Assembly: GCA_947460255.1 (NCBI GenBank)
Contig: CANHIS010000033.1
Coordinates: 1 to 32,428 of the forward strand
DNA from: Bacteroidota bacterium
Lineage (GTDB): Bacteria > Bacteroidota > Bacteroidia > M30B66
Length of the DNA: 32,428 nucleotides
Direction of reading: 5' to 3'
Shown: in pieces, positions 5,581 to 28,477 of the stretch
How positions within the stretch are numbered: the stretch's first letter is position 1
Layout of the letters: every line of letters begins with the position of its first letter
Made by a program: the position numbers and the translations under genes
The notes under the pieces: generated by a model
What the model was told of the DNA's origin: nothing
Database searches by the model: none
The model's input: the letters and a program-made list of their open reading frames with translations, nothing else

Positions 5581-6003
5581 ATGAAAATGAGTGACGAGAC
5601 AAAAATTTTCATCGTAGAAGATGAGCCTTTCTTCGCAAACCTGATCAATTACGATTTGGAAGCGAACTATTATGATGGTATTAAAGTATTTTTCAATGGT
5701 GAAGAAGCTATTGAAAATTTGAAACTAAAACCACGTGTTGTAATTCTAGACCACCAGCTCCCTGGAATGAGCGGCTTAGAAGTCCTTCAAAAAATCAAAG
5801 CTTTTGATCCAGATATTCATGTAATTTTTCTTTCTGGCACTGGGCCGGGTGTTGCTATCTCTGCGTTTAAAATGGGCGCTCATGATTTCATCGAAAAGAG
5901 TGAAAACGCTTTCAATGAAGTAAGAGCTCTCTTGAAAAAGATTTTCAGTGAAGAAGGCGAAAAAGAAATCAAGGTAAAGAATTACCCTGGGCACGAAGAA
6001 TAA
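5581..6003 (+). CDS. Stand-alone (single-domain) response regulator
   Basis: A 140-residue CheY-like receiver without an output domain. The acidic pocket is in FIVEDEP (E13, D14), the phospho-acceptor is D57 in VVILDHQLPGMSG, the switch serine is S85 in IFLSGTG, and the conserved lysine is K106 in HDFIEKS. The tail after residue ~120 is charged and ends KVKNYPGHEE. Single-domain regulators act in phosphorelays or by protein contact; no histidine kinase is encoded nearby, so the partner must lie elsewhere. A second ATG at 5587 (MSDETK) is an equally good start. The gene is isolated, follows two leader hairpins and ends in a strong terminator shared with the convergent gene A. Confidence 0.9.
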   Translation: MKMSDETKIFIVEDEPFFANLINYDLEANYYDGIKVFFNGEEAIENLKLKPRVVILDHQLPGMSGLEVLQKIKAFDPDIHVIFLSGTGPGVAISAFKMGAHDFIEKSENAFNEVRALLKKIFSEEGEKEIKVKNYPGHEE

Positions 6004-6133: not shown

Positions 6134-7621
6134 TTAGTTCTTGATCAAACGGTCAACAGTTTTGTAACCATTCGCATCAACCGATACTGTGTAAACTCCA
6201 GCAGGTAAGTGTGCTACCGAAATCTCAACGTTCACGCTAGTATTCGCAGAAGCATTAACTGATTCTTGAACTACCACACGGCCAGTAATATCGAACATGC
6301 GAACTACATAATTTTGATCTGTTGAAGCTGTTTCGATATTTACATTCACGCGATCGTTTGAAGGGTTTGGAAAAAGCCCCATAAAAAACACACCTGCATC
6401 TTCATCAGGATAGTTGTTTTGATCGTAAAGACCATATCTTCCATCATTAAGACCAGCGCATCCATAACCGAATACTGCGTCTACATCATATCCGTCTGCC
6501 GAACCTGGGAATTTGTTGCTAGATTTAATAGACTTGTCGATGATACGTAAAAAACGCAATGTTCCACCAGGCATTCCATTGATGTCTAATTTTCCATCAC
6601 GGCAAAGACGACCAGAACCACCAAGATATGCATCATCAGGTTCGTTTGAAGAAGGATCTGCAGCCAACAAAGTAAAGTTTACTCCGTCGTTTGATCCCCA
6701 GAATTCAGCAATTTCAGGATAGTTTGCGCAATTACGGGTAGCATTATCACCGAAAGTAGTCTCAAATACCTCAAGATCAGCGCCCATTCTATCCACAATT
6801 GTGTAGTAGAATTCGAGAGTGATTTGGCCTTCAGTTACATCAGCAGTTGAAGCTTTGTCAAAACCTAAAGACACAAACATCGGGGCTTGAGCAACATCGC
6901 TTCCTGAAGTTGAACCAACAGCTTTGTTCGGATCGCGGCGGTTCAATGCCGGAAGGTTGCTATTTCCTTTGATTGTTCCAACAATGTAATTGCTGAAAGC
7001 ATTTGCGAAACGAGGTCCACTAAGATCCATCAAAGGAACTATGTTAGAGAGATAATTGGCTTTTACACCATCCACATCATAGCCATCAGCTTCTGGCGAA
7101 AAGGCCGCATTGGGAGATGCATCTACAATTTTTACAAACATTGCCCATGGCATTGCATCAGGCAATTCGATGTTTAGATTCTGACAGCCATTGTCAACCA
7201 CTTGCAACCAGCTACAACCGTCTTGCGAAATGAAAACATCAGCAAATTCTTGCCAAGTAGCACAAGCTGGCGTGTTGTAGGAAGTTTCAAAAATCTGAAG
7301 ATCAACTCCTTCTCCACGACCAAATGGCTGTGAAAAACCAAGAATCATTTCTCCACCAAAACCGAGCGAAGTGAAGTTTACTGTTGATGAGTTTCCAGCA
7401 ACTTCGCCAAAATCAACATCACTTTCTTGTGGTGTTCCGTTGGCATTGTTTTCATCGTCGCGCGCATCCGGAATTGCACCAAGACCATCTGCTGTTGTAC
7501 CTGGAGTGTAACTAACTACCGTTGTTGGATACAATGGTTGAGCAATTAAGCTACCAGCACTAATACCCAGAAACGCTACTATAGACGCAACTGGCAATCT
7601 TAAATTTGTTAAGGTTTTCAT
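6134..7621 (-). CDS. Secreted two-module protein with T9SS type A sorting domain (paralogue A)
   Basis: A 495-residue secreted protein. Residues 1-28 form a signal peptide ending SAGSLIAQ. Two copies of the module shared by the whole array follow: about 33-190 (FTSLGFGGEMILGF, EADGYDVDGV) and 212-389 (MFVSLGF, DLEVFETTFG, YPEIAEFWGSNDG, GSADGYDVDAV). The C-terminus (about 415-495) is a T9SS sorting domain with LFPNPSNDRVNVNI, FDITGRVV and LPAGVYTVSVD. The first module carries an insertion (about residues 53-78) absent from the others. T9SS cargo is exported across the outer membrane and either anchored or released. The modules look like beta-sandwiches with Asp-rich loops; ligand and function are unknown. 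This is the most divergent of the four paralogues. Confidence 0.85.
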   Translation of the reverse strand: MKTLTNLRLPVASIVAFLGISAGSLIAQPLYPTTVVSYTPGTTADGLGAIPDARDDENNANGTPQESDVDFGEVAGNSSTVNFTSLGFGGEMILGFSQPFGRGEGVDLQIFETSYNTPACATWQEFADVFISQDGCSWLQVVDNGCQNLNIELPDAMPWAMFVKIVDASPNAAFSPEADGYDVDGVKANYLSNIVPLMDLSGPRFANAFSNYIVGTIKGNSNLPALNRRDPNKAVGSTSGSDVAQAPMFVSLGFDKASTADVTEGQITLEFYYTIVDRMGADLEVFETTFGDNATRNCANYPEIAEFWGSNDGVNFTLLAADPSSNEPDDAYLGGSGRLCRDGKLDINGMPGGTLRFLRIIDKSIKSSNKFPGSADGYDVDAVFGYGCAGLNDGRYGLYDQNNYPDEDAGVFFMGLFPNPSNDRVNVNIETASTDQNYVVRMFDITGRVVVQESVNASANTSVNVEISVAHLPAGVYTVSVDANGYKTVDRLIKN

Positions 7622-7644
7622 AATGAATTTGGTTTAAAGACAAA

Positions 7645-7675
7645 CAAACCTAAATATTTGACATTAATCTTACAA
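7645..7675 (-). promoter_or_regulatory. Promoter of gene A
   Basis: The minus strand reads TTG, a 20-base spacer, then TAGGTTTG, matching the Bacteroidota TTTG/TAnnTTTG pattern with normal spacing. The -7 box ends 23 bases before the ATG. Confidence 0.6.
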
Positions 7676-8146
7676 CACCTCCCGCCATCCAAAACACCAA
7701 ACATATGAACACCTTCCATTAGATAACTATACAAACATTAACCTAAAATACCATTAAAATATCAATACGATACTTTTGACACTTTATATAATTTAATTGC
7801 ATTTATTTGATTTAGTATTTCTTACACACGACACAATAAAATACATAAGTATATTGCCATAAACTTGATTATCAAGACATTATATTCTTAACACGTAATA
7901 AACATCCTTTCTATCTGCAAAAAAAATTTAACCAGAGTAAATCGTTCATCCTAAAACCTTGTGGCAAACTCCTTAAATCTGAGCAACGATGCTAGAAACC
8001 TATAAAATAAATGCTTAAATTTTTAAACAAAAACTACGACCGCGAAAACCGTTAGAAACAAGACGCCCATTCGATCATCTATTCTTAATCAGTTTTTGGA
8101 TACTTATCAACAGCGCAATATTTACATGAACAGGTCCTACATCATT
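7676..8146. other. AT-rich intergenic stretch between genes A and B
   Basis: Part of the 585-base gap between two minus-strand paralogues. It is very AT-rich and I find no gene, tRNA or strong hairpin. A plus-strand TACTTTTG at 7771-7778 resembles a -7 box but has no partner -33 element and no open frame after it. It may simply hold upstream regulatory sequence for gene A. Confidence 0.55.
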
Positions 8147-8183
8147 TATAAAACAAAAGCGCCCGACAAATTGCCGAGCGCTT
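8147..8183 (-). terminator. Intrinsic terminator of gene B
   Basis: The minus strand folds AAGCGCTCGGC/GTCGGGCGCTT (11 pairs with two G-U) around AATTT and continues TTTGTTTTAT. It lies 23 bases after the gene B stop. Confidence 0.85.
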
Positions 8184-8206
8184 CCTATTGTTGGGTTTAC
8201 GTAATC

Positions 8207-9907
8207 TTAGTTTTTAATCACCTTGATGCTTTGTTTTTGGCCGGCCGATTCAAGTGTCACAACATACACTCCTTTTGGAAGTTTGTCACCCGACATATTA
8301 TGCGTGTGCTTTGTGTTTCTAGGGATATTTATTGTTTCAACATGAACCATTTGTCCAACGTAATTAAACATTCGCACAGTAACTTTTTCATCCCGTGAGC
8401 CAGTTTCATACAATAGCTGGAACTGATCTTTGAATGGGTTTGGCTGAATTTGAGCCTCTGCAATTTCATCTGGAATCGAATTGTTATCAAACGGACGCAC
8501 ACGAGTTTCATTAGTACATCCATAAGAAATCACCACAAAACCATCAATATCATAGCCATCTGCAGAATTCGGGAACGCAGTTGCAGGCGATCTGTCGGTT
8601 ACTCTTAAATACTGCATTGCGTAAAGCTCATCAGTCATATCAATTTCACCATCCAAACAAACTTCACCCATTGGTTTCCATAGAATACCATCCAATGAAC
8701 CTTCAAAGTAAGCCGTTTCTTTGTATCCCTCGCAGTTTTGTTGACCAAAAGAAGTTTCTACAACTTGAATATCATTGCCTGGACGGTTAAAAATCACATA
8801 ATCAAACTTGAATACTGCGGATCCGGCAAAGCCTAAAGTCAGGAAGTTGATTCCTAAATCATTGTTTTGTGGAACTCCTAGTGCCGCTTCAGGATTGGTT
8901 CTGGATGAATGAATAGCAGTTCCGTTTTTACGGGTTCCTTGAATGTATTCAACAACCTCTTGTGCAGATCCAGCTACCAAACCATCGTCGGCAGTAACAC
9001 TTGCTGTTCCATTGAGACATTCTACGCCATCAACATCGTAACCATCAGCAACGCTATTGTTAAATGGATGTTCAACTGGACTTACATCTTTTAGCTTGAT
9101 GAATCGAGCCCAAGAAAAAGAACCTAAATCGAAGGTGGCATCTTGACATTTTTCACCTAGATAAATGAAATGACAGCCATCCTGCGAAGCATAAGCTTGA
9201 ATCTTTTCAGGATATCTGTTGCAGCCAAGATTACCAAATGTGCTTTCGGTTACTTTGATATCGTCGCCCGATCCATTTGCGATTGGCTGAGCGAATTTCA
9301 AAACAATTTCACCACCAAATCCCAACGATACAAAATTCAAGGCATCATCGTTTTCAGGTGCTCCAAGTGCTTTAGATGGGTCTCTTCGCTCCTCTACGAC
9401 AAATGAGCCATCGTTACGTTTCTTTGGATCATAGCTAACTACTTCTGAAACGTAACAACCTCCACCTCCGCAAGAAGCTCCTGATGAAGCCTTTACAGAC
9501 TGTTGCCATGCTGAATTTTCATCCTGCCAGCGAATCCGTACAGTATTCGGACCTGGAATGGTGTTGGAATAAAAGAAGTTTTCGCCTTTGTGGGCGATTA
9601 TGAGACCAGTTTGAAAATATGGATACAAATCCCATTCAATTGGCACATCGAATTCGTTCGGATTCACCACACGCCAGCGTCTGCTCACATTGGGATTTTC
9701 CGAACACATCGAAGTTAATGTTAATGGCTGAACAGACTCTCCGTCTTCAACCAGATTGGCTCGAGATTCACCGGAAGTAAAGAAATTCAGGTAAACCATC
9801 GACCCTACAACTACTGCCAATAACATTCCCGCGCTTCCTACTAAAAGGCGTTGTCGGAGAGAGGTTTTAACGGTTGTTTTGTTTCTGAGTGTAGTTCTTT
9901 TTTTCAT
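8207..9907 (-). CDS. Secreted two-module protein with N-domain and T9SS sorting domain (paralogue B)
   Basis: 566 residues. The N-terminus is unusual for a secreted protein: about 20 strongly basic residues (MKKRTTLRNKTTVKTSLRQR) precede a hydrophobic segment (about 21-43), so it may be a long signal peptide or a membrane anchor. Residues 62-146 form an N-domain (LTLTSMCSENPNVSRRWRV, then IPGPNTVRIRW and KASSGASC) shared with gene C. Module alpha is at 154-300 and module beta at 317-464, each with an NFVSLGFGG-like strand and a DGYDVDG/DGYDIDG loop. The T9SS tail (about 484-566) has IQPNPFKDQFQLLY and LPKGVYVVTLES. Conserved cysteines (TFGNLGCNRYPE, SQDGCHF, GEKCQD) may form disulfides outside the cell. 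Function is unknown; adhesion or glycan binding is only a guess. Confidence 0.83.
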   Translation of the reverse strand: MKKRTTLRNKTTVKTSLRQRLLVGSAGMLLAVVVGSMVYLNFFTSGESRANLVEDGESVQPLTLTSMCSENPNVSRRWRVVNPNEFDVPIEWDLYPYFQTGLIIAHKGENFFYSNTIPGPNTVRIRWQDENSAWQQSVKASSGASCGGGGCYVSEVVSYDPKKRNDGSFVVEERRDPSKALGAPENDDALNFVSLGFGGEIVLKFAQPIANGSGDDIKVTESTFGNLGCNRYPEKIQAYASQDGCHFIYLGEKCQDATFDLGSFSWARFIKLKDVSPVEHPFNNSVADGYDVDGVECLNGTASVTADDGLVAGSAQEVVEYIQGTRKNGTAIHSSRTNPEAALGVPQNNDLGINFLTLGFAGSAVFKFDYVIFNRPGNDIQVVETSFGQQNCEGYKETAYFEGSLDGILWKPMGEVCLDGEIDMTDELYAMQYLRVTDRSPATAFPNSADGYDIDGFVVISYGCTNETRVRPFDNNSIPDEIAEAQIQPNPFKDQFQLLYETGSRDEKVTVRMFNYVGQMVHVETINIPRNTKHTHNMSGDKLPKGVYVVTLESAGQKQSIKVIKN

Positions 9908-10090
9908 CTGGCACTTATTTATGCTTGTGCATTACAAAACATCAGACGAATACTATGAATTAGTGTTTCATTGAAGCAATAGGCGTTGAAGTAAGTTTTT
10001 CTGTGGTCTCTATCAAAATTCAACCAATCGCCTAGTGCATCAGCGATTTGAAAAAATGAACAATTGAAACCTACATGTAAGAACTACCTG

Positions 10091-10132
10091 AAAAAAGTTA
10101 GCCCCGCCCCGAAAAATCGGAGCGGGGCTAAC
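10091..10132 (-). terminator. Intrinsic terminator of gene C
   Basis: An 11-bp GC-rich stem GTTAGCCCCGC/GCGGGGCTAAC, extended by an inner CCGA/TCGG, is followed on the minus strand by six T residues. It lies 22 bases after the gene C stop. Confidence 0.9.
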
Positions 10133-10154
10133 CAAGATGCATTTAAGAATAAGC

Positions 10155-12332
10155 TTATTGCTTAACTACTTTCAAAACTTCTTTCGTTGAATTCGTTTCA
10201 ACAGAGATGAAGTAAACGCCTCTTGAAAGGTCAGATACATTCATTGAATGTTGAACTGAAGAAGATGCTGAAACATTTAAACGCTCAGAAGAAATCAATT
10301 TCCCAAGGTAGTTTGTAACTGTTACTGTTGCAGAATTGTCTTGATCTCCAGTAGAGATTACTAGGTTCAAGTTATCGCTGAATGGGTTAGGATAAACTTC
10401 TGCAGTTGTAATTTCATTTGCAGTTGTTATGTTGTCAGCCCAACGAGCAGTTGTGTTTGAAGCTGTTCCACAAGAATTGTTAATTACTACAACACCATCA
10501 ACATCATAAGCATCTGCTGAACCAGAGAAAGAAGTTAAAGCAGAACGGTCAGTGATGCGAACATATTGAATAGTTCCAGCTGCAGCGATGTCTACTTGAC
10601 CATCTTGGCAAATTGTTCCAAGGCTAACCCAATTTTCTCCATCAAGAGAACCTTCGATTTCAGCTGTTTCAGGGTAAGAATTGCAAGCAGGATTGCCGTA
10701 TGAAGTTTCAACTACCTGAAGATCATTCGCAGAAGGAGTGTCAAAAATCACATGCTTGAATTTAAGAACGATGCTACCACCAAATCCAAGTGCTACAAAG
10801 TTTACATTGTTAGTACCTTCTGGAAGACCTAGAGCATTTGCAGAATTTGCACGTGCAGCTGGTACAGCAGTTCCGTTTTTACGAGTACCTGCATTGTATG
10901 AAATCACTTCATTTGCACCAACAACAGCTGGATCAAGAACTGGATTTGCTTCGTAACCATTTAAACACATAATTCCATCAACATCGTAAGCATCTCCGTT
11001 TGGAGTTCCTTGATAAGCAGCATTTAATGGACTAACATCTACTAATTTGATGTATTGAGCCCAAGCAAGCATTCCAAGATCGAAATCTGTGTCTTGGCAA
11101 CCTTCTCCAAGGTAAACGAAGTTACAACCATCTTGAGAAGCAAATGCACGGATAGTTTCTGGGAAACGGTTACAACCGATGTTTCCAAATGTGCTTTCTA
11201 CAACACGAACATCATTGCCTTCGCCATTCTTAATTGGGCTACCGAATTTCAAAGTGATTTGACCACCAAAACCAAGAGATACGAAGTTTTCTGTATCGTT
11301 TGCTTCTGGAGCGCCTAAAGCTTTTGTAGGGATTGAACGTCCAGCATCAACTGGAGAAATACCATCGTATTTATTTCCTTGTGTGAAGCTGATTACTTGT
11401 TCAGCGTAACAAGTAGTTGGCAATTCAGGACAAACTTCAATTAGGCTAAGATCATCCAAGCCAAAGTCATTTCCTGTTTTAGATAGGTTAGCATCAACGA
11501 TTCTCAATTCGATTGAACCTGTTGAAGAAGCAGTGAATGTTGAAGCAAACTCTGTCCAAGAAGTAAGGCCTTCAGGTGAGAATGTACCCAACAATTCAGC
11601 TCCAGCATATACACGAAGCACAGCAGGAGACACAGCAAATGTATTTTGAGCATATGCTTTGAAAGCGTAATTCTTTCCAGCTACAACATTCACATTCTGA
11701 CTCCAAACAGTAAGCGTTGAAAGTGTGTTACCGTTAACCATCATGTAGTTACCAGAACGGCCAGTTCCTACCAATTGAGGATGGTAAGTAGCAACGTTTG
11801 GACCAACACCATAAGTGTTCTCTAATACCAATTCGTTGTTCGCAGCTCCATCAACTTTGTAAGTGTAACCTGAAGTGAATCCTGTGTTTCCACCTTCGAA
11901 ATTACCATTTACGATTAATTCTGTCCCGCAAGGAACTACTGGAGGAGGCGTTGAACACTGCGCTCCACCTGAAGCTTTTACTTTAGAGTATTGTGCACCT
12001 TCAACTGTCCAAAAAATACGGGTTGTATTTGGTGAACCAGGAACAGTAACAGTTTCGAAGAAGCTATCACCAGGCTGTGCAACACCAGATCCATTTTGAC
12101 CTGCGTTGTAAACATCCCAAGTGTAACTAACTGGTGCGTTTGTGAAATTTCTCACTCTCCATACGCGCGTAGCTGCTGGATCATTCGAACACATTGATGT
12201 TAAATTTAAATAGCCTGATGGAGCCACTTCATTTAGAGTTTGCTGAAATGCATTTGCATTTGAGCTCTCAACATTTCCGAAATTCAAAGTAGCGAAGAGC
12301 GCTATTCCGGTAATTGTAAAAAGGTTTTTCAT
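10155..12332 (-). CDS. Secreted multi-domain protein with T9SS sorting domain (paralogue C)
   Basis: 725 residues. A signal peptide (1-28, ending ESSNANA) is followed by an N-domain (40-126, LNLTSMCSNDPAATRVWRV) shared with B. Next is a G-domain (135-301: CGTELIVNGNFEGGNTGF, WSQNVNVVAGKNYAF, NDFGLDDLSL) that resembles galactose-binding/CBM-like jelly rolls and is shared with D. Module alpha is at 311-459 and module beta at 475-621. The T9SS tail (645-725) has VYPNPFSDNLNLVI and ends VETNSTKEVLKVVKQ. N and G are separated by a short proline-rich linker (STPPPVVPC). The last ~60 residues are nearly the same as in D, indicating recent common origin or exchange. A carbohydrate-binding or matrix role is plausible from the G-domain but unproven. 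Confidence 0.85.
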   Translation of the reverse strand: MKNLFTITGIALFATLNFGNVESSNANAFQQTLNEVAPSGYLNLTSMCSNDPAATRVWRVRNFTNAPVSYTWDVYNAGQNGSGVAQPGDSFFETVTVPGSPNTTRIFWTVEGAQYSKVKASGGAQCSTPPPVVPCGTELIVNGNFEGGNTGFTSGYTYKVDGAANNELVLENTYGVGPNVATYHPQLVGTGRSGNYMMVNGNTLSTLTVWSQNVNVVAGKNYAFKAYAQNTFAVSPAVLRVYAGAELLGTFSPEGLTSWTEFASTFTASSTGSIELRIVDANLSKTGNDFGLDDLSLIEVCPELPTTCYAEQVISFTQGNKYDGISPVDAGRSIPTKALGAPEANDTENFVSLGFGGQITLKFGSPIKNGEGNDVRVVESTFGNIGCNRFPETIRAFASQDGCNFVYLGEGCQDTDFDLGMLAWAQYIKLVDVSPLNAAYQGTPNGDAYDVDGIMCLNGYEANPVLDPAVVGANEVISYNAGTRKNGTAVPAARANSANALGLPEGTNNVNFVALGFGGSIVLKFKHVIFDTPSANDLQVVETSYGNPACNSYPETAEIEGSLDGENWVSLGTICQDGQVDIAAAGTIQYVRITDRSALTSFSGSADAYDVDGVVVINNSCGTASNTTARWADNITTANEITTAEVYPNPFSDNLNLVISTGDQDNSATVTVTNYLGKLISSERLNVSASSSVQHSMNVSDLSRGVYFISVETNSTKEVLKVVKQ

Positions 12333-12386
12333 TTAAAAGAAGTTAGGTTATGTATTCCCCTAAACGCATTTATTGTTTAGAGGTTA

Positions 12387-12394
12387 CAAATGTA
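12387..12394 (-). promoter_or_regulatory. Candidate -7 element of gene C
   Basis: The minus strand reads TACATTTG, an exact TAnnTTTG match, 54 bases before the ATG. The -33 region is weak. A 6-bp hairpin (CTAAAC/GTTTAG, 12360-12380) lies in the predicted 5' leader. Confidence 0.45.
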
Positions 12395-12545
12395 AGATAT
12401 TATCCATTAATAAAAACACAGCAACCTAATTAATAGCGATTTACGATGCACAAATCATTCATTTACAAAGCTATTCTGATGTAATGTTTTAATAAATAAG
12501 GCTAAACACCTATAGAATTTTACCGTGATTGAACAATAATCTTAC

Positions 12546-12581
12546 AAAAAAAAACGGCTGCCGTTTTGGGGCAACCGTTTT
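12546..12581 (-). terminator. Intrinsic terminator of gene D
   Basis: The minus strand folds AAAACGGTTGCC/GGCAGCCGTTTT (12 pairs, one G-U) around a 7-base loop and is followed by a run of T residues. It lies 18 bases after the gene D stop. Confidence 0.88.
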
Positions 12582-12599
12582 AAACAAAATAACTGTAGC

Positions 12600-14933
12600 T
12601 TATTGCTTAACTACTTTAATCACTTCTTTAGTAGAGTTAGTTTCTACAGAGATGAAATAAACACCGCTCTTGAAAGCAGACATGTTGATCATGTGATTTA
12701 CAGTTGAAGAAGACGCAACATTTAATTTTTCAACAGAAACTTGTTGACCAAGGTAATTGCTAACAACGATTGTTGCAGTGTTGTCTTGATCGCCAGTTCC
12801 GATTACCAAATTGATTTCGTTTTGGAATGGGTTAGGGAATACATCGATTGAAGTAACTTCATCAGGTGTATTTACATTGTCACCGAAACGAGTATCATTA
12901 TCGTTTGAACAATCTTGGTTGATAACAACAACACCATCTACATCGTAACCATCAGCTGATCCATTGAAAGAAGAAGCAGGAGTGCGGTCAGTGATACGGA
13001 TGTATTGGATAGTTCCAGCAGCATTGATGTCAATTTCGCCATCAAGACAAATTGTGTTCAAGCTAATCCAGTTGATACCGTCTAATGAACCTTCAACTTC
13101 AGCAGTTTCTGGGTAAGAAGCACATGAAGGATTGTTAAAAGTTGTTTCAGTTACACGAAGATCGTTTGCTGCTGGGTTGTCAAAAATCACGAATGGAAAT
13201 TTAATTGTTAATTGACCACCGAATCCAAGTGATACGAAGTTTATCACATCTGTTCCTTGTGGAGCACCAAGAGCGTTAGCTGGATTTGTACGAGCAGGTG
13301 TTACAGGCGTTCCGTTTTTACGTGGGCCTGCAGTGTATGAAATTACTTCTGATGCTCCTGCTGGAACTTCAGCAAGAACTGGGTTCTCTTCGTAACCATT
13401 CAAACAAAGGATACCGTCTAAATCGTATGCATCAGCAACTGGAGTTCCTTGGTAAGCACCGTCAACTGGACTAACATCTACAATTTTAATGTATTGAGCC
13501 CATCCAAGTGAACCTAAATCGAAGTCAGTATCTTGACAACCTTCGCCAAGGAATACGAAATTACAACCATCTTGAGAAGCAAACACATTGATTGTTTCTG
13601 GGTAACGGTTACAACCGATTCCTCCGAAAGTAGTTTCTACAACGCGAACATCGTTACCATCGCCATTTTTAATTGGGCTACCGAATTTCAAAGTGATATC
13701 GCCACCGAAACCTAGAGATACGAAGTTTTCAGTATCAGTTCCTTCTGGCATACCTAAAGCCTTCGCAGGATTAGAACGACCTACAGAAACGAAAGAACCA
13801 TCATTCTGCTTCTTTTGGTTAAAAGAAACAACTTCCATTGCGTAGCAGTTGTTAATCAAGTCACCAGTGTAAGCGCCATTCAAACATTCTACAGCATCAA
13901 CATCATAACCATCAGCAACTTGGCTATTACCAGCAGATGCAGCAGGAGTAGAATCAGTAATTTTAACGAATTGGATATAATCCATTCCATCAGGAATTGA
14001 CACTGAACCAGTTTGAGCGATTTCTCCTACTGGAACATAACCAAGACCATCTTGAGAAACTTCGATGAATGCACGTTCTCCGTTAACACTTGCAGATGAT
14101 TCCCAGATTTTAACATCTGCGCCATCACCATTTGCAATTGGAACTTCGAATTCAACTACAACATTTCCACCAAGACCAAGTGAAAAGAAATTTTGAACTG
14201 GAGCGTAGATTGCTGGATTCTGACCGTTTGGTGCACCAAGTGTATTTTCCGGGTTCGAACGCTCAGCATTAACTGGAGTTCCTAAACGGGTAAGACCTTG
14301 TGAGAAAGAAAACACACCTGTTGCGAAACAACCTGCTGGAGTTTCGTCACAAACTTGTGTAAAGCTAACATCATCAATTCCGAAATCGTTGCTTGCAGCT
14401 GCAAGGTTTGCATTCACAATCGACAATGTGATTGTTCCAGTAGCTGTTGCAGTGTAAACTCCTGTAACTTCATTCCAACCAGCTGCTACTGGTGAAAATG
14501 TTGCAAGAAGTTCAGTTCCAACAGAAAAACGAAGAATTGCTTGATTGCCACCAGCCAAACGCTGAGCAAAAGCTGAGAAGTTATACGTTTTACCAGCAAC
14601 TACATTTACATCTTGAGACCATGCAGTCTTGATGCTTCCTGTGTTACCGTTCACCATTAGAAATTTGCCTGAACGACCAACTCCTGTAATACTTGGATGA
14701 TAAGCAGAAACATTCACATCAACACCAAAAGTGTTTTCAGGAATCATTTCTCCGTTACCCGGACCATCATTTACAAATGTATAACCTGAAGAAAAGCCAT
14801 TAAAGCCTGCTTCAAAATCGCCATTTGCGATAAGATTGCTTCCGCAAGGCTGAGCTTGGGAAACAGCGTTGGCTATATTCAGCACAGAAAAAAGTGCGAG
14901 GCCAGCGATTTTAATAGAGTTTTTGTTTTTCAT
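12600..14933 (-). CDS. Secreted three-module protein with T9SS sorting domain (paralogue D)
   Basis: 777 residues, the largest of the array. The signal peptide (1-27) ends NAVSQA. The G-domain (30-195) starts CGSNLIANGDFEAGFNGF and ends NDFGIDDVSFTQVC, parallel to gene C. Three modules follow with a regular ~160-residue period: an extra, divergent module (206-353) lacking the paired cysteines, module alpha (366-513) and module beta (528-675). The T9SS tail (697-777) has VFPNPFQNEINLVI and ends VETNSTKEVIKVVKQ. Every module ends in a D-G/A-Y-D-x-D-G/A loop that looks suited to calcium binding. Unlike C there is no N-domain. The product should be surface-attached or released; no enzymatic motif is visible. 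Confidence 0.85.
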   Translation of the reverse strand: MKNKNSIKIAGLALFSVLNIANAVSQAQPCGSNLIANGDFEAGFNGFSSGYTFVNDGPGNGEMIPENTFGVDVNVSAYHPSITGVGRSGKFLMVNGNTGSIKTAWSQDVNVVAGKTYNFSAFAQRLAGGNQAILRFSVGTELLATFSPVAAGWNEVTGVYTATATGTITLSIVNANLAAASNDFGIDDVSFTQVCDETPAGCFATGVFSFSQGLTRLGTPVNAERSNPENTLGAPNGQNPAIYAPVQNFFSLGLGGNVVVEFEVPIANGDGADVKIWESSASVNGERAFIEVSQDGLGYVPVGEIAQTGSVSIPDGMDYIQFVKITDSTPAASAGNSQVADGYDVDAVECLNGAYTGDLINNCYAMEVVSFNQKKQNDGSFVSVGRSNPAKALGMPEGTDTENFVSLGFGGDITLKFGSPIKNGDGNDVRVVETTFGGIGCNRYPETINVFASQDGCNFVFLGEGCQDTDFDLGSLGWAQYIKIVDVSPVDGAYQGTPVADAYDLDGILCLNGYEENPVLAEVPAGASEVISYTAGPRKNGTPVTPARTNPANALGAPQGTDVINFVSLGFGGQLTIKFPFVIFDNPAANDLRVTETTFNNPSCASYPETAEVEGSLDGINWISLNTICLDGEIDINAAGTIQYIRITDRTPASSFNGSADGYDVDGVVVINQDCSNDNDTRFGDNVNTPDEVTSIDVFPNPFQNEINLVIGTGDQDNTATIVVSNYLGQQVSVEKLNVASSSTVNHMINMSAFKSGVYFISVETNSTKEVIKVVKQ

Positions 14934-20951: not shown

Positions 20952-21968
20952 ATGATAAAATCTTTACTGCTAACGAGTTCAATTCTATTTGCTGCATTGT
21001 CTGCAAATTCACAATGCAACGAATTGTTTATTTCCGAATATGTTGAAGGTTCTGGAAATAACAAAGCCCTAGAGCTTTACAATCCAACCAATGCTCCCGT
21101 TGACTTAGGAAGTTATCGATTGATTAGATGGGATAATGGATCAGTAGTAGCTGCAGATAACGCTATTCAAGTTTTGCCTGCAGGTGTTTTTATTGGTTCA
21201 AAACAAACTTACGTTATTGCGCTAAACTTAACGGATCCTAATGGAACTGGTCAAACTGCACCTATCGATGCTGCACTTCAGGAAAAAGCAGATACGTTGC
21301 TATCAAATGGCTGTGGAACTGAACCAGGCAACATCAGAACCATGTGTTTCAATGGTGACGATGCGTTATCATTGGAAAAAAACAATGCCGGAACTTGGCA
21401 AATTGTGGATATTTTCGCATGTATCGGAGAGCAACCATTAAATTCTCAAGGAACAGCAAATCCTACAGCGGCTTGGACCGACATTGCTCCATATTCAAGC
21501 ATACCAGTTGGTTACGATGGTTCTGTTCCTTATTTCTTCAGATACTGGACGCAAAACCAAACACTCAAGCGCAAACTATCTGTTACAAGTGGTGTTACTA
21601 CGAATCCTGCACCTCAATCATTTAATCCTTCTATTCAATGGGATTCATTGGCCGAAAACATGTTCGATTCTTTAGGATTCCATACTTGTGCCTGCAATAC
21701 AGTTGGAATTTTGGATATCGACGACGAGTCGCGCACTCTTGTTTACCCAAATCCTGCTGCTGATCTTACCTACATAGAAGCAGCATTTGAAATTCGTGCA
21801 GTAGAATTCAGAAACTTACTAGGACAATTAATGTTGGTTGAAAACAATGCGACCAAATCGAAAAAAGTAACAGCTCGTACTAACGAACTTCCTTCTGGTC
21901 TTTACACTGTTCGTGTGATGTTCACAAACGGAAAAACATCTGAACGGAAACTTGTAGTTCGTCCATAA
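20952..21968 (+). CDS. Secreted lamin-tail-domain (LTD) protein with T9SS sorting domain
   Basis: 338 residues. The signal peptide ends ALSANSQ (about residue 21). The next part (about 22-185) is a lamin tail domain: CNELFISEYVEGSGNNKALE, LYNPTNAPVDLGSYRL and FNGDDALSLEKN. The C-terminus (about 262-338) is a T9SS tail with LVYPNPAADLTYIEA, FRNLLGQLMLV and LPSGLYTVRVM. In Bacteroidota and other bacteria LTD domains are often attached to secreted nucleases and phosphatases; here the domain stands alone but lies just upstream of an operon ending in a secreted endonuclease I. It probably works outside the cell as a binding module. A terminator separates it from the TonB receptor gene. Confidence 0.85.
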   Translation: MIKSLLLTSSILFAALSANSQCNELFISEYVEGSGNNKALELYNPTNAPVDLGSYRLIRWDNGSVVAADNAIQVLPAGVFIGSKQTYVIALNLTDPNGTGQTAPIDAALQEKADTLLSNGCGTEPGNIRTMCFNGDDALSLEKNNAGTWQIVDIFACIGEQPLNSQGTANPTAAWTDIAPYSSIPVGYDGSVPYFFRYWTQNQTLKRKLSVTSGVTTNPAPQSFNPSIQWDSLAENMFDSLGFHTCACNTVGILDIDDESRTLVYPNPAADLTYIEAAFEIRAVEFRNLLGQLMLVENNATKSKKVTARTNELPSGLYTVRVMFTNGKTSERKLVVRP

Positions 21969-21982
21969 TTTCAAACCTCAAC

Positions 21983-22020
21983 AAGCACGGTACTCTTAGG
22001 ATTACTGTGCTTTTTTCTTT
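21983..22020 (+). terminator. Intrinsic terminator after the LTD gene, abutting the TonB receptor start
   Basis: AAGCACGGTA pairs with TACTGTGCTT (10 pairs, one G-U) around a 10-base loop and is followed by a T-run. The T-run ends about two bases before the ATG of the next gene at 22023, so it may also act as an attenuator for the operon. Confidence 0.75.
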
Positions 22021-22022
22021 TT

Positions 22023-24761
22023 ATGAAGAAACTTTTCAGTTTAATCATTCTAAACCTTCTTGGATTAGCGATTTTCGCGCAAGGTGGAACCGTTACTGGC
22101 AAGGTTACAGATAAATCTACAGGTGAAACTATCCTTGGAGCATCGGTAATTTATGCAGCCGGTAAAGGAGCACAAACAGATCTCGACGGAAATTATAAAA
22201 TCGACTTACCCAACGGAAGCTATACCTTAACATGTAGCGCGATGGGTTTCAAATCGCAGTCAATAAACATCGTAATTGCTGATAAATCGATTTCTAAAGA
22301 TTTCGTGATGGAAAGCAATACGCTGAAAGAGGTTGAAGTTTCTTCAGACATTGCCATTGCGCGCGAAACACCTGTAGCTTTCTCTAACATCAGCCCAATA
22401 AAGATTCAAGAACAACTCGGAGCACAGGATCTTCCAATGATCTTGAACTCCACACCTGGCGTGTATGCAACACAACAAGGCGGAGGAGATGGTGATGCAC
22501 GTGTTTCGATTCGTGGTTTCAACTCACAAAATGTGCAGGTGCTTATCGATGGTATTCCGATGAACGACGTGTTTAATGGTCGTGTATTTTGGACCAATTG
22601 GTTTGGTCTAGACAACCTTACATCGGGCGTTCAAGTTCAGCGCGGTTTGGGAGCATCAAAGTTGGCGATTCCATCTATCGGAGGAACGATGAACATCTTA
22701 ACAGCAGGAATTGATTCGAAACGCATGCTCTCAGTTCGACAAGAAGTTGGAAACGACATGAACCTAAGAACTGGAATTAATTTTAACTCAGGAAAACTTA
22801 AGAATGGCTTTGGCGTGAGCGCGGCATTCTCCTATCGCTCAAATGATGGATACGTTGATGAACTTAGTTCTGAAATGTTTTTCTATTACCTTAAGGTGGA
22901 AAAATTCTTTGGAAAGCATTTGTTTTCCTTGTCTGGATTCGGAGCTCCACAGCGCAGTGCTCAAAGGGATTTCCGCGTTGATCAACCAATCTACACCTAT
23001 AGCAAAGCACTTGCTGCTCAATTAGGTGTAGACACAACAGGGAAAATCGAATACGGAAGAAGATACAATCCAAGTTGGAATCTTCTTCGCCAAACTGCTA
23101 CTGGCGGAGCAGATGCACCGGCAGATGTATTCAATACAAGCATCAATCAGTTTCATAAGCCTGTGATTTCCTTGCGTCACTTTGTGAATATCAATCCGAG
23201 GTTTTACTGGTCGAACATTCTTTATGGTTCCTATGGAATGGGTGGAGGGATTCAGCCAAACAACACAATCGCCTTGGATTCTACTGGCCGACAGAACATT
23301 CAAGCAATTTATGACGGAAATACCACTAGCCCGTTCAATATTTATCAAGGGTTTGGCCCAGATAGTTTGTATAAAGGTCAACGAAGAGCTACAAATTTCA
23401 TTCGCAAGAACTACAATCAACACCAATGGTACGGTGCCCTTTCTACCTTCAAATGGTCGGCCTTTTCGGGATGGGATATTTCAGGTGGGTTGGATTTGAG
23501 AACTTACAACGGACAAGTATTCAGCCGCGTGGACGACCTGCTTGGAGCTGACTTGTGGGTTACTTCAGTAAATCAAAACATTGAGCCGAATCAGCCCGTT
23601 TTCGTTGGCGACACCATCACGCAGTTTATTGAACGCAATATTCGCTGGGGGGGTGCATTTGCTTTGGCAGAGTACAAAGTTGGAAAATGGTCGGCCTTCA
23701 TCAACTTAAGTTCTTCCATGAGTTTTTACAAACAGTATAACCACTTTTTGAAAAAGCAACTTGACGTTGAAGACACTACATTGTATATCGGTTACGGAGA
23801 TACGATCACATACAAAGACGTAACTTACAACCAAGGATCTGAAGGTTTGAAAACCAATCAAAGCGAATGGGTTCGTCTAGTTGGTTACACCATTAAAGGC
23901 GGGGTAAACTACAACATCAACGACCGAATGAACGTGTTTATGAATATTGGTTATTTGAACCGTGCTCCATTGATGCAATTCACAATTCGCTCCGACAACC
24001 GTAAGTTCCAAACCATCGACAATGAATTGATTCAATCGGCAGAGCTTGGCTATTCTTACAAATCATCAAAATTCGCTGCAAACTTTAATGGTTATTACAC
24101 AGTTTGGAACAATCGACCAACTTCCGTTTCATTTACCGTAAACGGGGAACCAGTTAGCTCTAATGCCTCAGGCATGGGTGCACTTCACACAGGTTTAGAA
24201 TTGGATTTTGTTTACAAAGTGTTGAAGAACCTCAACGTGGAAGGAATGATTTCTATTGGCGATTGGCGCTGGAACAAAGTGGCAACTGCGACAGTGTTCG
24301 ACGACAATGGCAATCCAACCGATACTGTTAGATTTGATCCGCGCGGCGTAAAAGTTGGTGATGCTGCACAACGAAGCTATGCAATTTCGATGCGCTACGA
24401 GCCTATCAAACGATTGTATATTAAACCTCAGTTTACATTATTCACTCACAATTTTGCAAACTACACACCTGATGCATTGCAGGTTACGGATTTAGTGAAT
24501 GACTTAGGTCCAAACATTGGCCGTCAATCTTGGAGAATGCCAAACTATGGTTTGTTAGATGTGAACGCGGGTTATGGAGTGATGATTAAAAAAATAAAAC
24601 TCGATTTAAGGATTAGTGTGATAAATATTCTTGATGCTGAAGGCATTACCGATGCACAAAGCAATCAATTTGGAAATACTTCCTCATTTAATGCAGCCAG
24701 TTCAAGTGTAAACTTTTTACTTGGCCGTCGTTGGCAAACATCTTTAACGCTAACTTTTTAA
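22023..24761 (+). CDS. TonB-dependent outer membrane receptor with carboxypeptidase-regulatory-like N-domain
   Basis: 912 residues. The signal peptide ends LGLAIFAQ (about 20). Residues ~23-105 are a CarboxypepD_reg-like domain (GTVTGKVTDKSTGETILGAS, YTLTCSAMGFKSQ). The plug domain (about 110-240) includes VSIRGFNSQNVQVLIDGIPM, VQVQRGLGASKLAIPSIGG and TMNIL; the remainder is a beta-barrel ending in aromatic residues (RRWQTSLTLTF). It imports a bulky substrate across the outer membrane with TonB-ExbBD energy. No SusD-like partner follows, so it is not a typical polysaccharide locus. It heads a tight operon with a lipoprotein (5-base gap) and a secreted endonuclease I (9-base gap), which hints at nucleic-acid-derived substrates. 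The start abuts a terminator hairpin and has no clear Shine-Dalgarno sequence. Confidence 0.9.
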   Translation: MKKLFSLIILNLLGLAIFAQGGTVTGKVTDKSTGETILGASVIYAAGKGAQTDLDGNYKIDLPNGSYTLTCSAMGFKSQSINIVIADKSISKDFVMESNTLKEVEVSSDIAIARETPVAFSNISPIKIQEQLGAQDLPMILNSTPGVYATQQGGGDGDARVSIRGFNSQNVQVLIDGIPMNDVFNGRVFWTNWFGLDNLTSGVQVQRGLGASKLAIPSIGGTMNILTAGIDSKRMLSVRQEVGNDMNLRTGINFNSGKLKNGFGVSAAFSYRSNDGYVDELSSEMFFYYLKVEKFFGKHLFSLSGFGAPQRSAQRDFRVDQPIYTYSKALAAQLGVDTTGKIEYGRRYNPSWNLLRQTATGGADAPADVFNTSINQFHKPVISLRHFVNINPRFYWSNILYGSYGMGGGIQPNNTIALDSTGRQNIQAIYDGNTTSPFNIYQGFGPDSLYKGQRRATNFIRKNYNQHQWYGALSTFKWSAFSGWDISGGLDLRTYNGQVFSRVDDLLGADLWVTSVNQNIEPNQPVFVGDTITQFIERNIRWGGAFALAEYKVGKWSAFINLSSSMSFYKQYNHFLKKQLDVEDTTLYIGYGDTITYKDVTYNQGSEGLKTNQSEWVRLVGYTIKGGVNYNINDRMNVFMNIGYLNRAPLMQFTIRSDNRKFQTIDNELIQSAELGYSYKSSKFAANFNGYYTVWNNRPTSVSFTVNGEPVSSNASGMGALHTGLELDFVYKVLKNLNVEGMISIGDWRWNKVATATVFDDNGNPTDTVRFDPRGVKVGDAAQRSYAISMRYEPIKRLYIKPQFTLFTHNFANYTPDALQVTDLVNDLGPNIGRQSWRMPNYGLLDVNAGYGVMIKKIKLDLRISVINILDAEGITDAQSNQFGNTSSFNAASSSVNFLLGRRWQTSLTLTF

Positions 24762-24766
24762 GGAAT

Positions 24767-25219
24767 ATGAAAAAACTAGCCATCATCGCATTGCTTAGCG
24801 TAGGATTTATTTCCTGCAGTAAGGAGCAAAATGCTGCCGACCAACTAAATGCTGGTATTTGGAAAATCAGCTTGCTAAAATGGGCAAACGGCAAAGAAGT
24901 TGAAACCACAAACGACATTCACAAGATGGAGTTTTTTCCTTGCACCGATGCTTATACAGCAACTTGCAAAGGCGTTTACACACTCGATTATGCTGATACA
25001 GCCCGAACAGACCTTCGCGATACATTTCAGTTCGACATCAAAGGCAGCGAGTTATCAATCACTGCAGTCAAAAGTTCTGTGGGATCAAATACCTTTGTGA
25101 CCAAAATACTTCGTCAGCGCTACGAAATTGAACAACTTACCGACTCAGAATTGGCGCTTAAAAGATTCCGAACATTCGCCGACAGCACAGAAGGCTACAT
25201 CCGTGCACAAAAACAATAA
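24767..25219 (+). CDS. Small lipoprotein, lipocalin-like in pattern
   Basis: 150 residues. The start MKKLAIIALLSVGFISCSKE gives a lipoprotein signal peptide with the lipobox cysteine at about residue 17; AAGGA just upstream is a plausible ribosome-binding site, which is why the longer frame from 24731 is not used. The mature part starts with LNAGIWKISLLKWANGKEVE and alternates short beta strands, including FQFDIKGSELSITAV and YEIEQLTDSELALKRF. This resembles small lipocalin-like lipoproteins of Bacteroidota, but the assignment is by pattern only. It lies between the TonB receptor and the endonuclease genes and is probably an accessory to one of them in the envelope. Confidence 0.75.
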   Translation: MKKLAIIALLSVGFISCSKEQNAADQLNAGIWKISLLKWANGKEVETTNDIHKMEFFPCTDAYTATCKGVYTLDYADTARTDLRDTFQFDIKGSELSITAVKSSVGSNTFVTKILRQRYEIEQLTDSELALKRFRTFADSTEGYIRAQKQ

Positions 25220-25228
25220 ATTAAATAC

Positions 25229-27520
25229 ATGAAAAAACTATTCTTAATTCTTGCTACTGTATTCAGTTCAATGGCTGCAGAAGCACAAAGTCCAGTTCCT
25301 ACATCTTGGGATTGCACTGGAGCTGCAACACCAGAAGGTTGGACTTTTGTTCCAACTGGTGGAAACGGCAACACAAACTACACAGGCAGTTCTGCTTGTG
25401 ATGGTGCTTCCTCTCTAAGAATGGATGCAGCAAATGAAGCATTGGTGATCTTTTTAGGTCAACAACCAGGAGAAGTAAGTTACCAGATTGGCGGATCAAC
25501 AAGTGGAAGCCCTTTTGAAGGAACTTTTGTGGTTCAAGAATCTGTTGATGGTGTGGCATATACCAATATGGCTTCTTACACAGATGCTGACTTGAGCGTT
25601 TCAAGTTGTTTGTCAGCATCCGTTACGCCAACAAATCCTTTGAGTCGTTACATTCGCTTTTTCTTCCAAAACAAAGTATCTGGCTCCAATATAAAAATTG
25701 ATGAGATCAGCATTGCAACACCAGTAATTACGACTGCTAGTATTGACGTAAAGCAAGGAACAACAACAGTTTTAAATGGTGGTATTGCAGATCCTTTCAA
25801 TGGTACTTCAGTAACTTTTCAGGTGAATAACATCGGAACAACAGAAGACCTTGTGGTTTCCGAAGTTAACTTCACTGGCGCCAACGCTGGACTTTATTCA
25901 CTAGCGAGCCCTTCACTTCCATTTACAGTTGCTGCAGGTGGTAACACCAATTTGGTGGTGAATTTCTCACCAACTGCAGCCGGAACAAATGTGGCGGGAA
26001 TCGAGCTTTTGAATAACGACTTAGATGATGCAACTTTTGCCTTCACACTTTACGGAGTAAATGGAAACTTCGCAACTGAACCTGCATCTGCAGTTACGGC
26101 AATATCAAATCCAGTAAACAAGACATTCCGCACAGTTATTGGCTTCAATGGTAACATTCTAAACGAAGACATTCTTGGCGGTTACGTAGTTCTTCGTAGT
26201 GAAGGAGCTCCTATCAGCTCAGCTCCCTCTGACGGATCGAACTATACTCGTGGGCAAACTATCGGAAATGCTAAAGTTATTTTTGCAGGACGCCCAGAAG
26301 ACGCAAATGTTAGTCTCAATGCGCGTTATGTAATTGCAGGAAAAACCTACCATTTTGCAGTTTTCCCTTATTCAGGTGCGGGTACTTTCACGAATTACAT
26401 CAACACGATTTCTGAAACTACAGTTACTTCACCAGCAACTATGGTATCGGCAAACGAATACACAGGAATTAGTACCGCTAATGCTACGCTTGCAGCAGAT
26501 CTTCAAGCAATTACAGAAGATCACTTTTCTATTTTCTACAGCAATTACGCGCCGATAGTGATCAATTTGTTCCAAGCCCGCGATACCTTTGCAACTGTTG
26601 GAGCAAATACTTTCACCCGTGTAATCAATTGCGCTTACAGCGGAGAAACGAAGCTTTTCAACGATCCATTCGATTGGACAGGAACTGGTTATAGCCGCGA
26701 GCACACTTTTCCACACAGTTGGATGCCATCTTTTCCAGCCGACAATCCTGAGAAACCTGAATACAACGATTACCATAACCTCTACCCTACCCGTCAAACC
26801 AATGTAAATGACGTTCGTTGTAACTACCCATTAGGCGAAGTTGTAGGAACTCCAACTGTTGAATTTCTTGATGGTAAACTTGGTTTAGACGCCAATGGAA
26901 AAACGGTTTACGAACCGAGAGACCAGCATAAAGGTCGCGCTGCCCGTGCATTAATGTACATGGCTGTTACTTACAACTCTCAGGCTAACCCATTCACATT
27001 CACTAATCCTGTTGGACAGCAATGTTTGCAAAATATCATCAGCTATCCACAAGATCAGAACCTTGTTAAGAAATGGCATTTCGATTACCCTCCAGATGGT
27101 TTCGATATTTCTCGTAACGATTTCTTAGACTCAGTTCAAACGAACAGAAATCCATTTGTAGATCAACCAGATTTGGCTTGTTACATTGACTTTAGCAATG
27201 TTTCACATATTGCAAATCCTCCATCACCATGCTGGACATTGAGCGCTACCAATGTTGATGCGGCAGTGATGAATGTAAACATCTTCCCAAATCCAAGCAA
27301 CGTATCTGCATTGCTAACTTTCGGAATGCAGAAATCACAGGCTTACCAAATCGAAGTTTCTGATCTTTCAGGACGTGTTGTTTTCCGCTCTAATGCAGCC
27401 GGACAAACAGGTTTAAACCAAGTAGAAATTCCTACAATCGATTTTTCTAACGGTGCTTACACTGTTAAAATCGAAGCTGGAAATTCAATGCAAGTAAGAA
27501 AAATGATGGTGGCTCACTAA
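25229..27520 (+). CDS. Secreted endonuclease I family nuclease with T9SS sorting domain
   Basis: 763 residues. The signal peptide ends MAAEAQ (about 20). An N-terminal beta-rich domain (to about 165) is followed by a choice-of-anchor-D/HYDIN-like immunoglobulin fold (about 170-275) and a fibronectin-like part. The endonuclease I (NucM/EndA-type) domain spans about 405-675: SREHTFPHSWMP with the catalytic His, then YNDYHNLYPTRQTNVNDVRC and YPLGEVVG, and EPRDQHKGRAARALMYMAV. The family cuts DNA (and sometimes RNA) without sequence specificity using a divalent metal. The tail (about 685-763) has IFPNPSNVSALLTF, VSDLSGRVVF and FSNGAYTVKIE. It is the last gene of the TonB receptor operon and ends in a strong terminator, fitting digestion of extracellular DNA. 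Confidence 0.9.
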   Translation: MKKLFLILATVFSSMAAEAQSPVPTSWDCTGAATPEGWTFVPTGGNGNTNYTGSSACDGASSLRMDAANEALVIFLGQQPGEVSYQIGGSTSGSPFEGTFVVQESVDGVAYTNMASYTDADLSVSSCLSASVTPTNPLSRYIRFFFQNKVSGSNIKIDEISIATPVITTASIDVKQGTTTVLNGGIADPFNGTSVTFQVNNIGTTEDLVVSEVNFTGANAGLYSLASPSLPFTVAAGGNTNLVVNFSPTAAGTNVAGIELLNNDLDDATFAFTLYGVNGNFATEPASAVTAISNPVNKTFRTVIGFNGNILNEDILGGYVVLRSEGAPISSAPSDGSNYTRGQTIGNAKVIFAGRPEDANVSLNARYVIAGKTYHFAVFPYSGAGTFTNYINTISETTVTSPATMVSANEYTGISTANATLAADLQAITEDHFSIFYSNYAPIVINLFQARDTFATVGANTFTRVINCAYSGETKLFNDPFDWTGTGYSREHTFPHSWMPSFPADNPEKPEYNDYHNLYPTRQTNVNDVRCNYPLGEVVGTPTVEFLDGKLGLDANGKTVYEPRDQHKGRAARALMYMAVTYNSQANPFTFTNPVGQQCLQNIISYPQDQNLVKKWHFDYPPDGFDISRNDFLDSVQTNRNPFVDQPDLACYIDFSNVSHIANPPSPCWTLSATNVDAAVMNVNIFPNPSNVSALLTFGMQKSQAYQIEVSDLSGRVVFRSNAAGQTGLNQVEIPTIDFSNGAYTVKIEAGNSMQVRKMMVAH

Positions 27521-27537
27521 GCCAACAATTACAAACT

Positions 27538-27575
27538 AAAAACGCCTCGGTCAATTTGATCGAGGCGTTTTTTTT
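27538..27575 (+). terminator. Strong intrinsic terminator of the receptor-nuclease operon (bidirectional)
   Basis: A 15-bp stem AAAAACGCCTCGGTC/GATCGAGGCGTTTTT around AATTT, followed by T residues. Its A-run gives a T-tract on the minus strand, and its right edge overlaps the stop codon of the convergent regulator gene, so it probably serves both. Confidence 0.9.
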
Positions 27576-28359
27576 ATGCCTTTCGCATGGTATTCTTTAA
27601 CTTATTTACCTCTCGTTGAAGATGCATCACCGTGGAAGCTATTTCAGATCTGTCGAGATTCGGCTCGGGCAGTTCAGACGAAATATAATGGGTGAATTTC
27701 CAAACCTCTAAAACGTGGTTAATCGAGATTTCATAAGGCTCGTAAGCAGGATTTGTTGAACAAAGTAAAAGAGTGCCATCCTCATCAATTTGATTGTAAA
27801 CCGTTTTAAATACAATGCCATCATCTTTGGTGACAATGATATAAGGATTGCCATTCTTGATGAAATTCCAATTCTCAAGATATTCGCCGGTTACCCAAGA
27901 TCCATCTGCTACAGGCGGCATCGAATCTCCTATGATTGGGAAAGTTCTATACTTCCTTCCTGGCGACAAAAACGGCATGTTGAAAGCCGGTAAAACCCGA
28001 ATGTATTCTGGATCTGCATAGCCACTAGTGTATCCGGCGCGAGCCTTCAATGGCACCAACTCAACATTCTCATTGTTGTCTTTGTCGACCGTTGTAGCTA
28101 TAATTCTCAATGAAGTTCCAGAAAGGCGAGACTGAACATCTGCCGCTGGAATTCCAGTGCGTGAAAGGTCTTGTCGCAGCAACGCATCAACCGTGATGGT
28201 GTAATAATCGGAAAGCCGCATCAAATATTCGGTATTGGGCTCCGCCGATCCGTTTTCATATCCGCTCAAGGTGGTACGCTTAATCGAAATGTCGTTGGCT
28301 ACTTCCTCTTGAGATTTCCCTTTCGACTTCCTTAGAAATTTAAGATTGGCTGCGATCAT
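27574..28359 (-). CDS. XRE-family regulator with S24 (LexA/CI-like) self-cleaving domain
   Basis: 261 residues. The N-terminal Cro/CI helix-turn-helix (about 3-60) reads NLKFLRKSKGKSQEEVANDI and TTLSGYENGSAEPN. The C-terminal domain (about 100-225) has the S24 peptidase fold: a candidate cleavage site A108-G109 in KARAGYTSGY, the nucleophile S146 in PIIGDSMPP, and the general-base K185 in GIVFKTVYN. Spacings (38 and 39 residues) resemble LexA and phage CI. A C-terminal helix (about 240-261, VMHLQREVNKLKNTM) could mediate dimerisation. Such proteins are repressors removed by RecA-stimulated autocleavage or other stress signals. It is divergent from a secreted subtilase and has a candidate operator in its own promoter. 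Confidence 0.9.
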   Translation of the reverse strand: MIAANLKFLRKSKGKSQEEVANDISIKRTTLSGYENGSAEPNTEYLMRLSDYYTITVDALLRQDLSRTGIPAADVQSRLSGTSLRIIATTVDKDNNENVELVPLKARAGYTSGYADPEYIRVLPAFNMPFLSPGRKYRTFPIIGDSMPPVADGSWVTGEYLENWNFIKNGNPYIIVTKDDGIVFKTVYNQIDEDGTLLLCSTNPAYEPYEISINHVLEVWKFTHYISSELPEPNLDRSEIASTVMHLQREVNKLKNTMRKA

Positions 28360-28373
28360 GACTGATTTTTGGT

Positions 28374-28381
28374 CAAATATA
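28374..28381 (-). promoter_or_regulatory. Candidate -7 element of the S24 regulator gene
   Basis: The minus strand reads TATATTTG (TAnnTTTG), 14 bases before the ATG. The operator-like palindrome at 28386-28406 lies directly upstream of this box. Confidence 0.5.
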
Positions 28382-28385
28382 AAAC

Positions 28386-28406: not shown

Positions 28407-28477
28407 AATTTTTGATTTCTTTGTTCAACCATTTCAAAATGAGATTGTTTTACCTTGTGATCGTCAATAACAACAAA

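Follow-up and report, generated by a model that had tools for sequence, protein, structure and literature searches.

The adhesin-domain proteins RgpA, Kgp and HagA of Porphyromonas gingivalis are exported by the type IX secretion system (T9SS). Their adhesin domains diversify by domain rearrangement and allelic exchange, and the family is characterized by cleaved adhesin domains, DUF2436, protease heads and separate loci (PMC5266723). The gingipain/HagA family is also the nearest case found in the literature on T9SS and discoidin surface arrays, in which nothing closer was found (PMC5266723). Two other groups of described domains are relevant here: the F5/8 type C (F5/8C) and CBM32 domains (PF00754), represented by Bacteroides chitobiases (3f2z, 3ggl, 2kd7), and the vitamin B12-binding C-terminal domain of BtuH and BtuGH (7BIZ, 8BLW; PMC8941943, PMC10404256, PMC12751083). 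Here we describe a tandem array of four genes, A to D, in a 32,428-nucleotide stretch of contig CANHIS010000033.1 from a Bacteroidota genome (the window), and compare it with these systems. The window genome is labelled G000, and the genomes of its relatives G001, G003–G007 and G009.

The four open reading frames (ORFs) lie side by side on the minus strand, and all of them end in module alpha, module beta and a T9SS type A sorting domain, as a previous interpretation made from the sequence alone (the sequence-only reading) had described. The sorting domain is above the curated cut-off in 4/4 proteins (PF18962, TIGR04183) and is the only part of A–D that passes the cut-off in a Pfam/NCBIfam scan. 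The genome also encodes the T9SS sortase PorU (1343 bits), and by these two features A–D are T9SS type A cargo. The N-terminal parts, or heads, differ: there is none in A, an N-domain in B, N- and G-domains in C, and a G-domain plus a third module in D. This domain order was confirmed, N being common to B and C (47% identity, E 1e-14) and G to C and D (54%, E 1e-48).

The best overall explanation, to which we assign a probability of about 0.6, is a tandem array of T9SS cargo in which a constant F5/8C pair is combined with variable heads for ligand binding at the cell surface, and which evolved by duplication and gene conversion. Each protein has, by prediction, a rigid F5/8C pair next to its surface anchor; B, C and D have additional modules distal to the pair, namely N (immunoglobulin-like, Ig-like), G (CBM4/16/22-like) or another F5/8C-like copy. 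A–D would be exposed at the cell surface and bind carbohydrates or similar ligands, the F5/8C modules probably with calcium; the conserved core would act as a platform and the heads would alter reach or specificity. New members would arise by duplication, conversion between neighbours would keep the C and D cores alike, and heads would be gained and lost.

Alpha, beta and the third module of D had been read as separate modules. All three are present, but by sequence comparison they are copies of one domain family. The profile–profile search, which had been suggested as a check, matched alpha to beta with a probability of 100 (E 7e-57), the third module of D is 37–40% identical to alpha, and D_a and D_b share 46% identity (E 2e-30). 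Among B, C and D, identities are 58–77% for alpha and 52–69% for beta, and gene A is the most divergent member, with 27–41% identity to the other three. The modules have conserved motifs of their own (SLGFGG, GxGxD and ADGYDVDG), and their invariant acidic residues may form a calcium site.

Structure prediction of the alpha–beta pair, another check proposed at the outset, was carried out with AlphaFold on an alignment of 76 alpha–beta pairs. The model is confident, with a mean predicted local distance difference test score (pLDDT) of 94.8 and a predicted template modelling score (pTM) of 0.90, and the two modules therefore appear to be packed as one rigid unit. A Foldseek search of the PDB matched this unit to the F5/8C domains of the Bacteroides chitobiases cited above, to CBM32 domains including that of pneumococcal EndoD (2xqx, TM-score by target length 0.68), to neuropilin b1b2 and factor VIII, and to BtuH2 (7biz, E 3e-4). 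By sequence alone, no solved structure was confidently matched to the modules, a match to BRCC36 (E 0.45) being probable chance, and Pfam F5_F8_type_C is found below cut-off in 33 of the 76 pairs (best E 6e-6). By prediction, alpha and beta adopt a compact F5/8 type C (discoidin/CBM32-like) fold. The N–G part of C was modelled with a pLDDT of 87. G matches CBM4, CBM16 and CBM22 modules (TM-score by target length up to 0.75, with a porphyran-binding CBM), Pfam CBM_4_9 is found in six members below cut-off, and G is predicted to be a CBM4/16/22-like jelly roll. N, which matched no Pfam family, is modelled as a small Ig-like β-sandwich.

From these models, the most likely function of A–D is the binding of glycans or other ligands at the cell surface. 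The F5/8C/CBM32-like and CBM4/16/22-like folds agree with adhesion or glycan binding, a function that we infer from them. The proteins could also be structural or cell–cell adhesive components (coat, matrix or gliding adhesins), in which the F5/8C-like modules hold proteins or cells together and recognize no specific glycan. The fold matches include the tandem F5/8C domains of neuropilin and factor VIII, whose ligands are proteins or membranes, and these would fit such a role, as would the presence of modules at the C-terminal end of very large repeat proteins in the window genome, for example two of 1926 and 1522 amino acids with Ig-like repeats. Against it, the G heads resemble glycan-binding CBM4/16/22 modules and no gliding or coat genes are seen at the array locus. 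We consider this alternative rather unlikely and favour ligand binding by a constant pair with variable heads.

At least four genera of the family have genomes in which the array is syntenic and flanked by the same genes. On one side these encode a malate dehydrogenase, an MscS-type channel and a response regulator, and on the other a permease, a DAHP-synthase-type protein and a deoxyhypusine-synthase-type protein (names assigned by sequence, with a Pfam check for two). The response regulator gene (window 5581–6003) adjoins gene A, is kept in the syntenic relatives and is a possible regulator of the array; no promoter motif common to all the genes was found upstream of A–D. The comparison of the locus that the sequence-only reading had called for shows that the array varies across relatives in both gene number and head domains. 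A fifth gene, E, is found in relatives at the site of the 585-bp gap between A and B; no remnant of it was found in this gap, and the window genome lacks E. The arrangement is A-E-B-C-D in G001 and A-E-B-C-D without G in G004. G003 has A-E-B, D without G and two C-type genes, in one of which a clean in-frame gap removes G. In G005, A-E and B-D without G are split over two contigs, and G006 contains A and two N-bearing genes, with neither D nor E. G007 has A-E-B-D and a C gene full of stops (L130:2725-4885), which also contains frameshifts; the adjoining DAHP-synthase-type gene is split too, so part of the damage to C may be an assembly error. The description as a four-gene family thus holds for the array of the window, but the arrays of relatives contain three to six genes and module-bearing proteins number eleven in the window genome.

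Phylogenetic trees show two patterns within the array. A, B and E each group as one-to-one orthologues across genera, and exchange among them was undetected. In the core tree, C and D of G000 and G001 form one clade (support 98/99) and C and D of G003 and G004 another (99/98); approximately unbiased (AU) tests rejected a clade of C cores (p 0.0056) and a clade of D cores (p 0.0022). The N heads of C, however, are a single clade over three genera (100/100), which implies that the C-type head is older than the sub-lineages, yet the C core joins the local D. In G001, the alpha module of D is nearer to that of C than to its own orthologue (98/97). Between G001 and G004, 51 quartet sites in alpha favour the within-genome C–D pairing and 4 favour the orthologues. 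In G001, C and D are 88–90% identical in DNA over alpha and 58–64% over the G heads, and the D–D orthologue comparison over the same alpha stretch gives 77–85%. The C and D cores are homogenized within lineages and their heads stay distinct. Gene conversion between neighbouring C and D cores, with heads inherited separately, would be the simplest account, and it is supported for C and D only.

Ordinary paralogy could produce homogenized cores with no exchange at all, if C and D had been duplicated independently in each sub-lineage; this would be compatible with either function considered above. The behaviour of A, B and E as plain orthologues and the small sample of the family, for which ten genomes are available, are in its favour. 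It is difficult to reconcile with the single clade of C-type N heads and with the position of the G001 D alpha, and a change of head is seen directly in G003, where a C gene cleanly lacking G coexists with a C-type gene that has it. We judge independent duplication unlikely. The sequence-only reading had proposed growth by duplication and recombination of domains, and had named one-to-one conservation of the same four proteins across distant genera, with no domain exchange, as the pattern that would speak against it. The variable array and the conflict between C/D cores and heads bear the proposal out; A, B and E show the opposing pattern, and C and D do not.

Apart from independent duplication, three points weigh against the explanation by a ligand-binding array shaped by duplication and conversion. 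F5/8C folds bind many things, including glycans, lipids and proteins. The Pfam matches are under the gathering cut-offs, F5_F8_type_C scoring 22.4 bits in D where 28.2 are required. Finally, the relatives all appear to be metagenome-assembled genomes (MAGs), and gaps in assembly could account for some of the missing genes or heads; G003, G005 and G009 are fragmented.

The family extends well beyond the array. The window genome contains 23 module matches in its eleven module-bearing proteins, on seven contigs. In a sample of 149 Bacteroidia genomes (5 of the window's family and 144 others, E <= 1e-6), all 5 genomes of the family carry 16–24 module copies; among the 144 others, 41 have one copy, 1 has two and 102 have none. 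The expansion of the module is lineage-specific. The N-domain is present in 5/5 genomes of the family, weakly in one other of the sample, and also in one Cytophagales locus (L043). In one module protein, the N-terminal part is a long aspartate-rich repeat, NDDSDDDNDNDD, which runs past the contig end (L014:1-1506), and two large proteins have short-unit tandem repeats, ACYQTATFNNQSCSWVLTG and ACYETASFDALNCEWTVTG, upstream of the modules (L015:5738-11518 and L016:1-2331). Module homologues with 39–49% identity were also found in MAGs labelled Acidobacteriota, Patescibacteria, Parcubacteria, Altiarchaeales, Woesearchaeota and Aenigmatarchaeota (L050, L052, L073, L077, L079, L088, L096), none of them with a T9SS tail. 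They may reflect transfer into surface proteins of episymbionts, or errors of binning.

Of all module copies in the window genome, the most distant is that of S (L018:3346-4338, contig C5), a single-module T9SS protein with no Pfam annotation except its tail. S is homologous to the modules (hhalign probability 98.9, E 2.8e-17), and its profile matched little in the PDB besides T9SS tails. Its operon has a cobalamin riboswitch and also encodes a TonB receptor, a DUF4465 protein and a DUF5074 protein. In 15 of 17 other genomes of Bacteroidia (L170–L186), S likewise has a cobalamin riboswitch nearby, mostly with the same partner genes. DUF4465 proteins bind B12 (PMC13398666, PMC12751083), and S is, from its genomic context, a candidate new component of B12 uptake. 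S and the modules also have a short motif, VSLGGxGG..F..I.N..G..DF, in common with the B12-binding domain of BtuH/BtuGH (module match E 0.012). The profile match covers 37–41 columns with a probability of 28–30 (37 columns and 30 for the modules), and a full-length match was not obtained; a module has about 150 residues, whereas the profile of the BtuH domain has about 295 positions. Most B12 contacts of the BtuH domain lie in the rest of the domain, which is unaligned to the modules (PMC8941943).

B12 capture by the array was considered on account of S and BtuH: the modules might descend from a surface protein of a B12 locus, have lost the riboswitch and still bind cobamides or compounds related to them. 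Their homology to a protein of cobalamin-riboswitch loci, the local motif and the BtuH2 fold match would fit this descent. No match to a cobalamin riboswitch was obtained in the window, the sub-threshold Rfam matches in the array at a relaxed threshold being taken as chance, and the array lies away from the type of locus in which S is found; the aligned stretch is short, the modules have about half the length of the BtuH domain, and 23 copies per genome is unlike known sets for B12 scavenging. We regard this descent with retained capture as very improbable. The fuller scenario is equally remote; in it, a single-copy B12-locus domain would have multiplied more than twentyfold in one lineage, escaped B12 control and become a modular T9SS surface set still capturing cobamides or other scarce small molecules, conversion keeping the core common and the heads variable. 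With a short BtuH match, half-length modules and no riboswitch, B12 binding by the array appears unlikely; a remote common origin of the fold is plausible.

The features of the array are listed in Table 1. Elsewhere in the window (20952–31261) there is, judging by sequence, more apparent T9SS cargo: a lamin-tail-like protein encoded next to a TonB receptor, and proteins resembling endonuclease I and subtilisin.

Table 1. Genes and domains of the array, in window positions
Feature	Position	Strand	Basis or remark
Gene A, alpha-beta-tail without a head, 495 aa	6134..7621	-	ORF, domain comparison; one-to-one orthologue conserved
A module alpha	7061..7525	-	
A module beta, with insertions	6470..7003	-	
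A T9SS type A sorting domain	6140..6379	-	Pfam PF18962, TIGR04183
A–B gap, 585 bp	7622..8206	.	Site of fifth gene E in relatives
Gene B, N-alpha-beta-tail, 566 aa	8207..9907	-	ORF, domain comparison
B N-domain (Ig-like)	9470..9724	-	
B module alpha	9008..9448	-	
B module beta	8528..8965	-	
B T9SS type A sorting domain	8213..8452	-	Pfam PF18962, TIGR04183
Gene C, N-G-alpha-beta-tail, 725 aa	10155..12332	-	ORF, domain comparison
C N-domain (Ig-like)	11955..12209	-	
C G-domain (CBM4/16/22-like jelly roll, predicted)	11430..11930	-	AlphaFold, Foldseek, Pfam below cut-off
C module alpha (F5/8C-like)	10956..11405	-	AlphaFold, Foldseek
C module beta (F5/8C-like)	10479..10916	-	AlphaFold, Foldseek, Pfam below cut-off
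C T9SS type A sorting domain	10161..10400	-	Pfam PF18962, TIGR04183
Gene D, G-third module-alpha-beta-tail, 777 aa	12600..14933	-	ORF, domain comparison
D G-domain	14349..14846	-	D orthologues of three relatives lack G
D third module	13875..14324	-	Same family as alpha and beta
D module alpha	13395..13841	-	
D module beta	12918..13355	-	
D T9SS type A sorting domain	12606..12848	-	Pfam PF18962, TIGR04183

For an F5/8C-like domain family that had no annotation, this analysis provides a predicted fold, the distribution and a sister protein encoded in B12 loci. It also documents concerted evolution of the core with free heads in a T9SS array beyond the known pathogen case. The ligand, if found, would explain the surface display of an uncultured, apparently freshwater Bacteroidia lineage with about ten paralogous proteins.

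Compared with the described systems, the modules are like F5/8C and CBM32 domains in predicted fold and weak sequence signal; they differ in staying under the Pfam gathering cut-off, in forming a tandem pair within T9SS cargo and in having their own motifs. G resembles CBM4, CBM16 and CBM22 in its predicted jelly-roll fold, although the array proteins that bear it have no attached enzyme. The likeness to the BtuH C-terminal domain and BtuGH consists of the short motif, the Foldseek match and a module homologue in B12 loci, whereas BtuH is found in lipoproteins with PKD domains and the array modules, about half as long, are found in T9SS cargo away from B12 genes. With RgpA, Kgp and HagA the array has in common that Bacteroidota surface proteins with shared domains diversify by recombination among paralogues, here for C and D only. 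In contrast to that family, A–D form a tandem array with F5/8C- and CBM-like domains and no recognized catalytic domain, and Pfam found no cleaved adhesin domains, DUF2436 or protease heads in them. The array is a clear, though not unprecedented, case in which modular surface proteins evolve through duplication combined with gene conversion.

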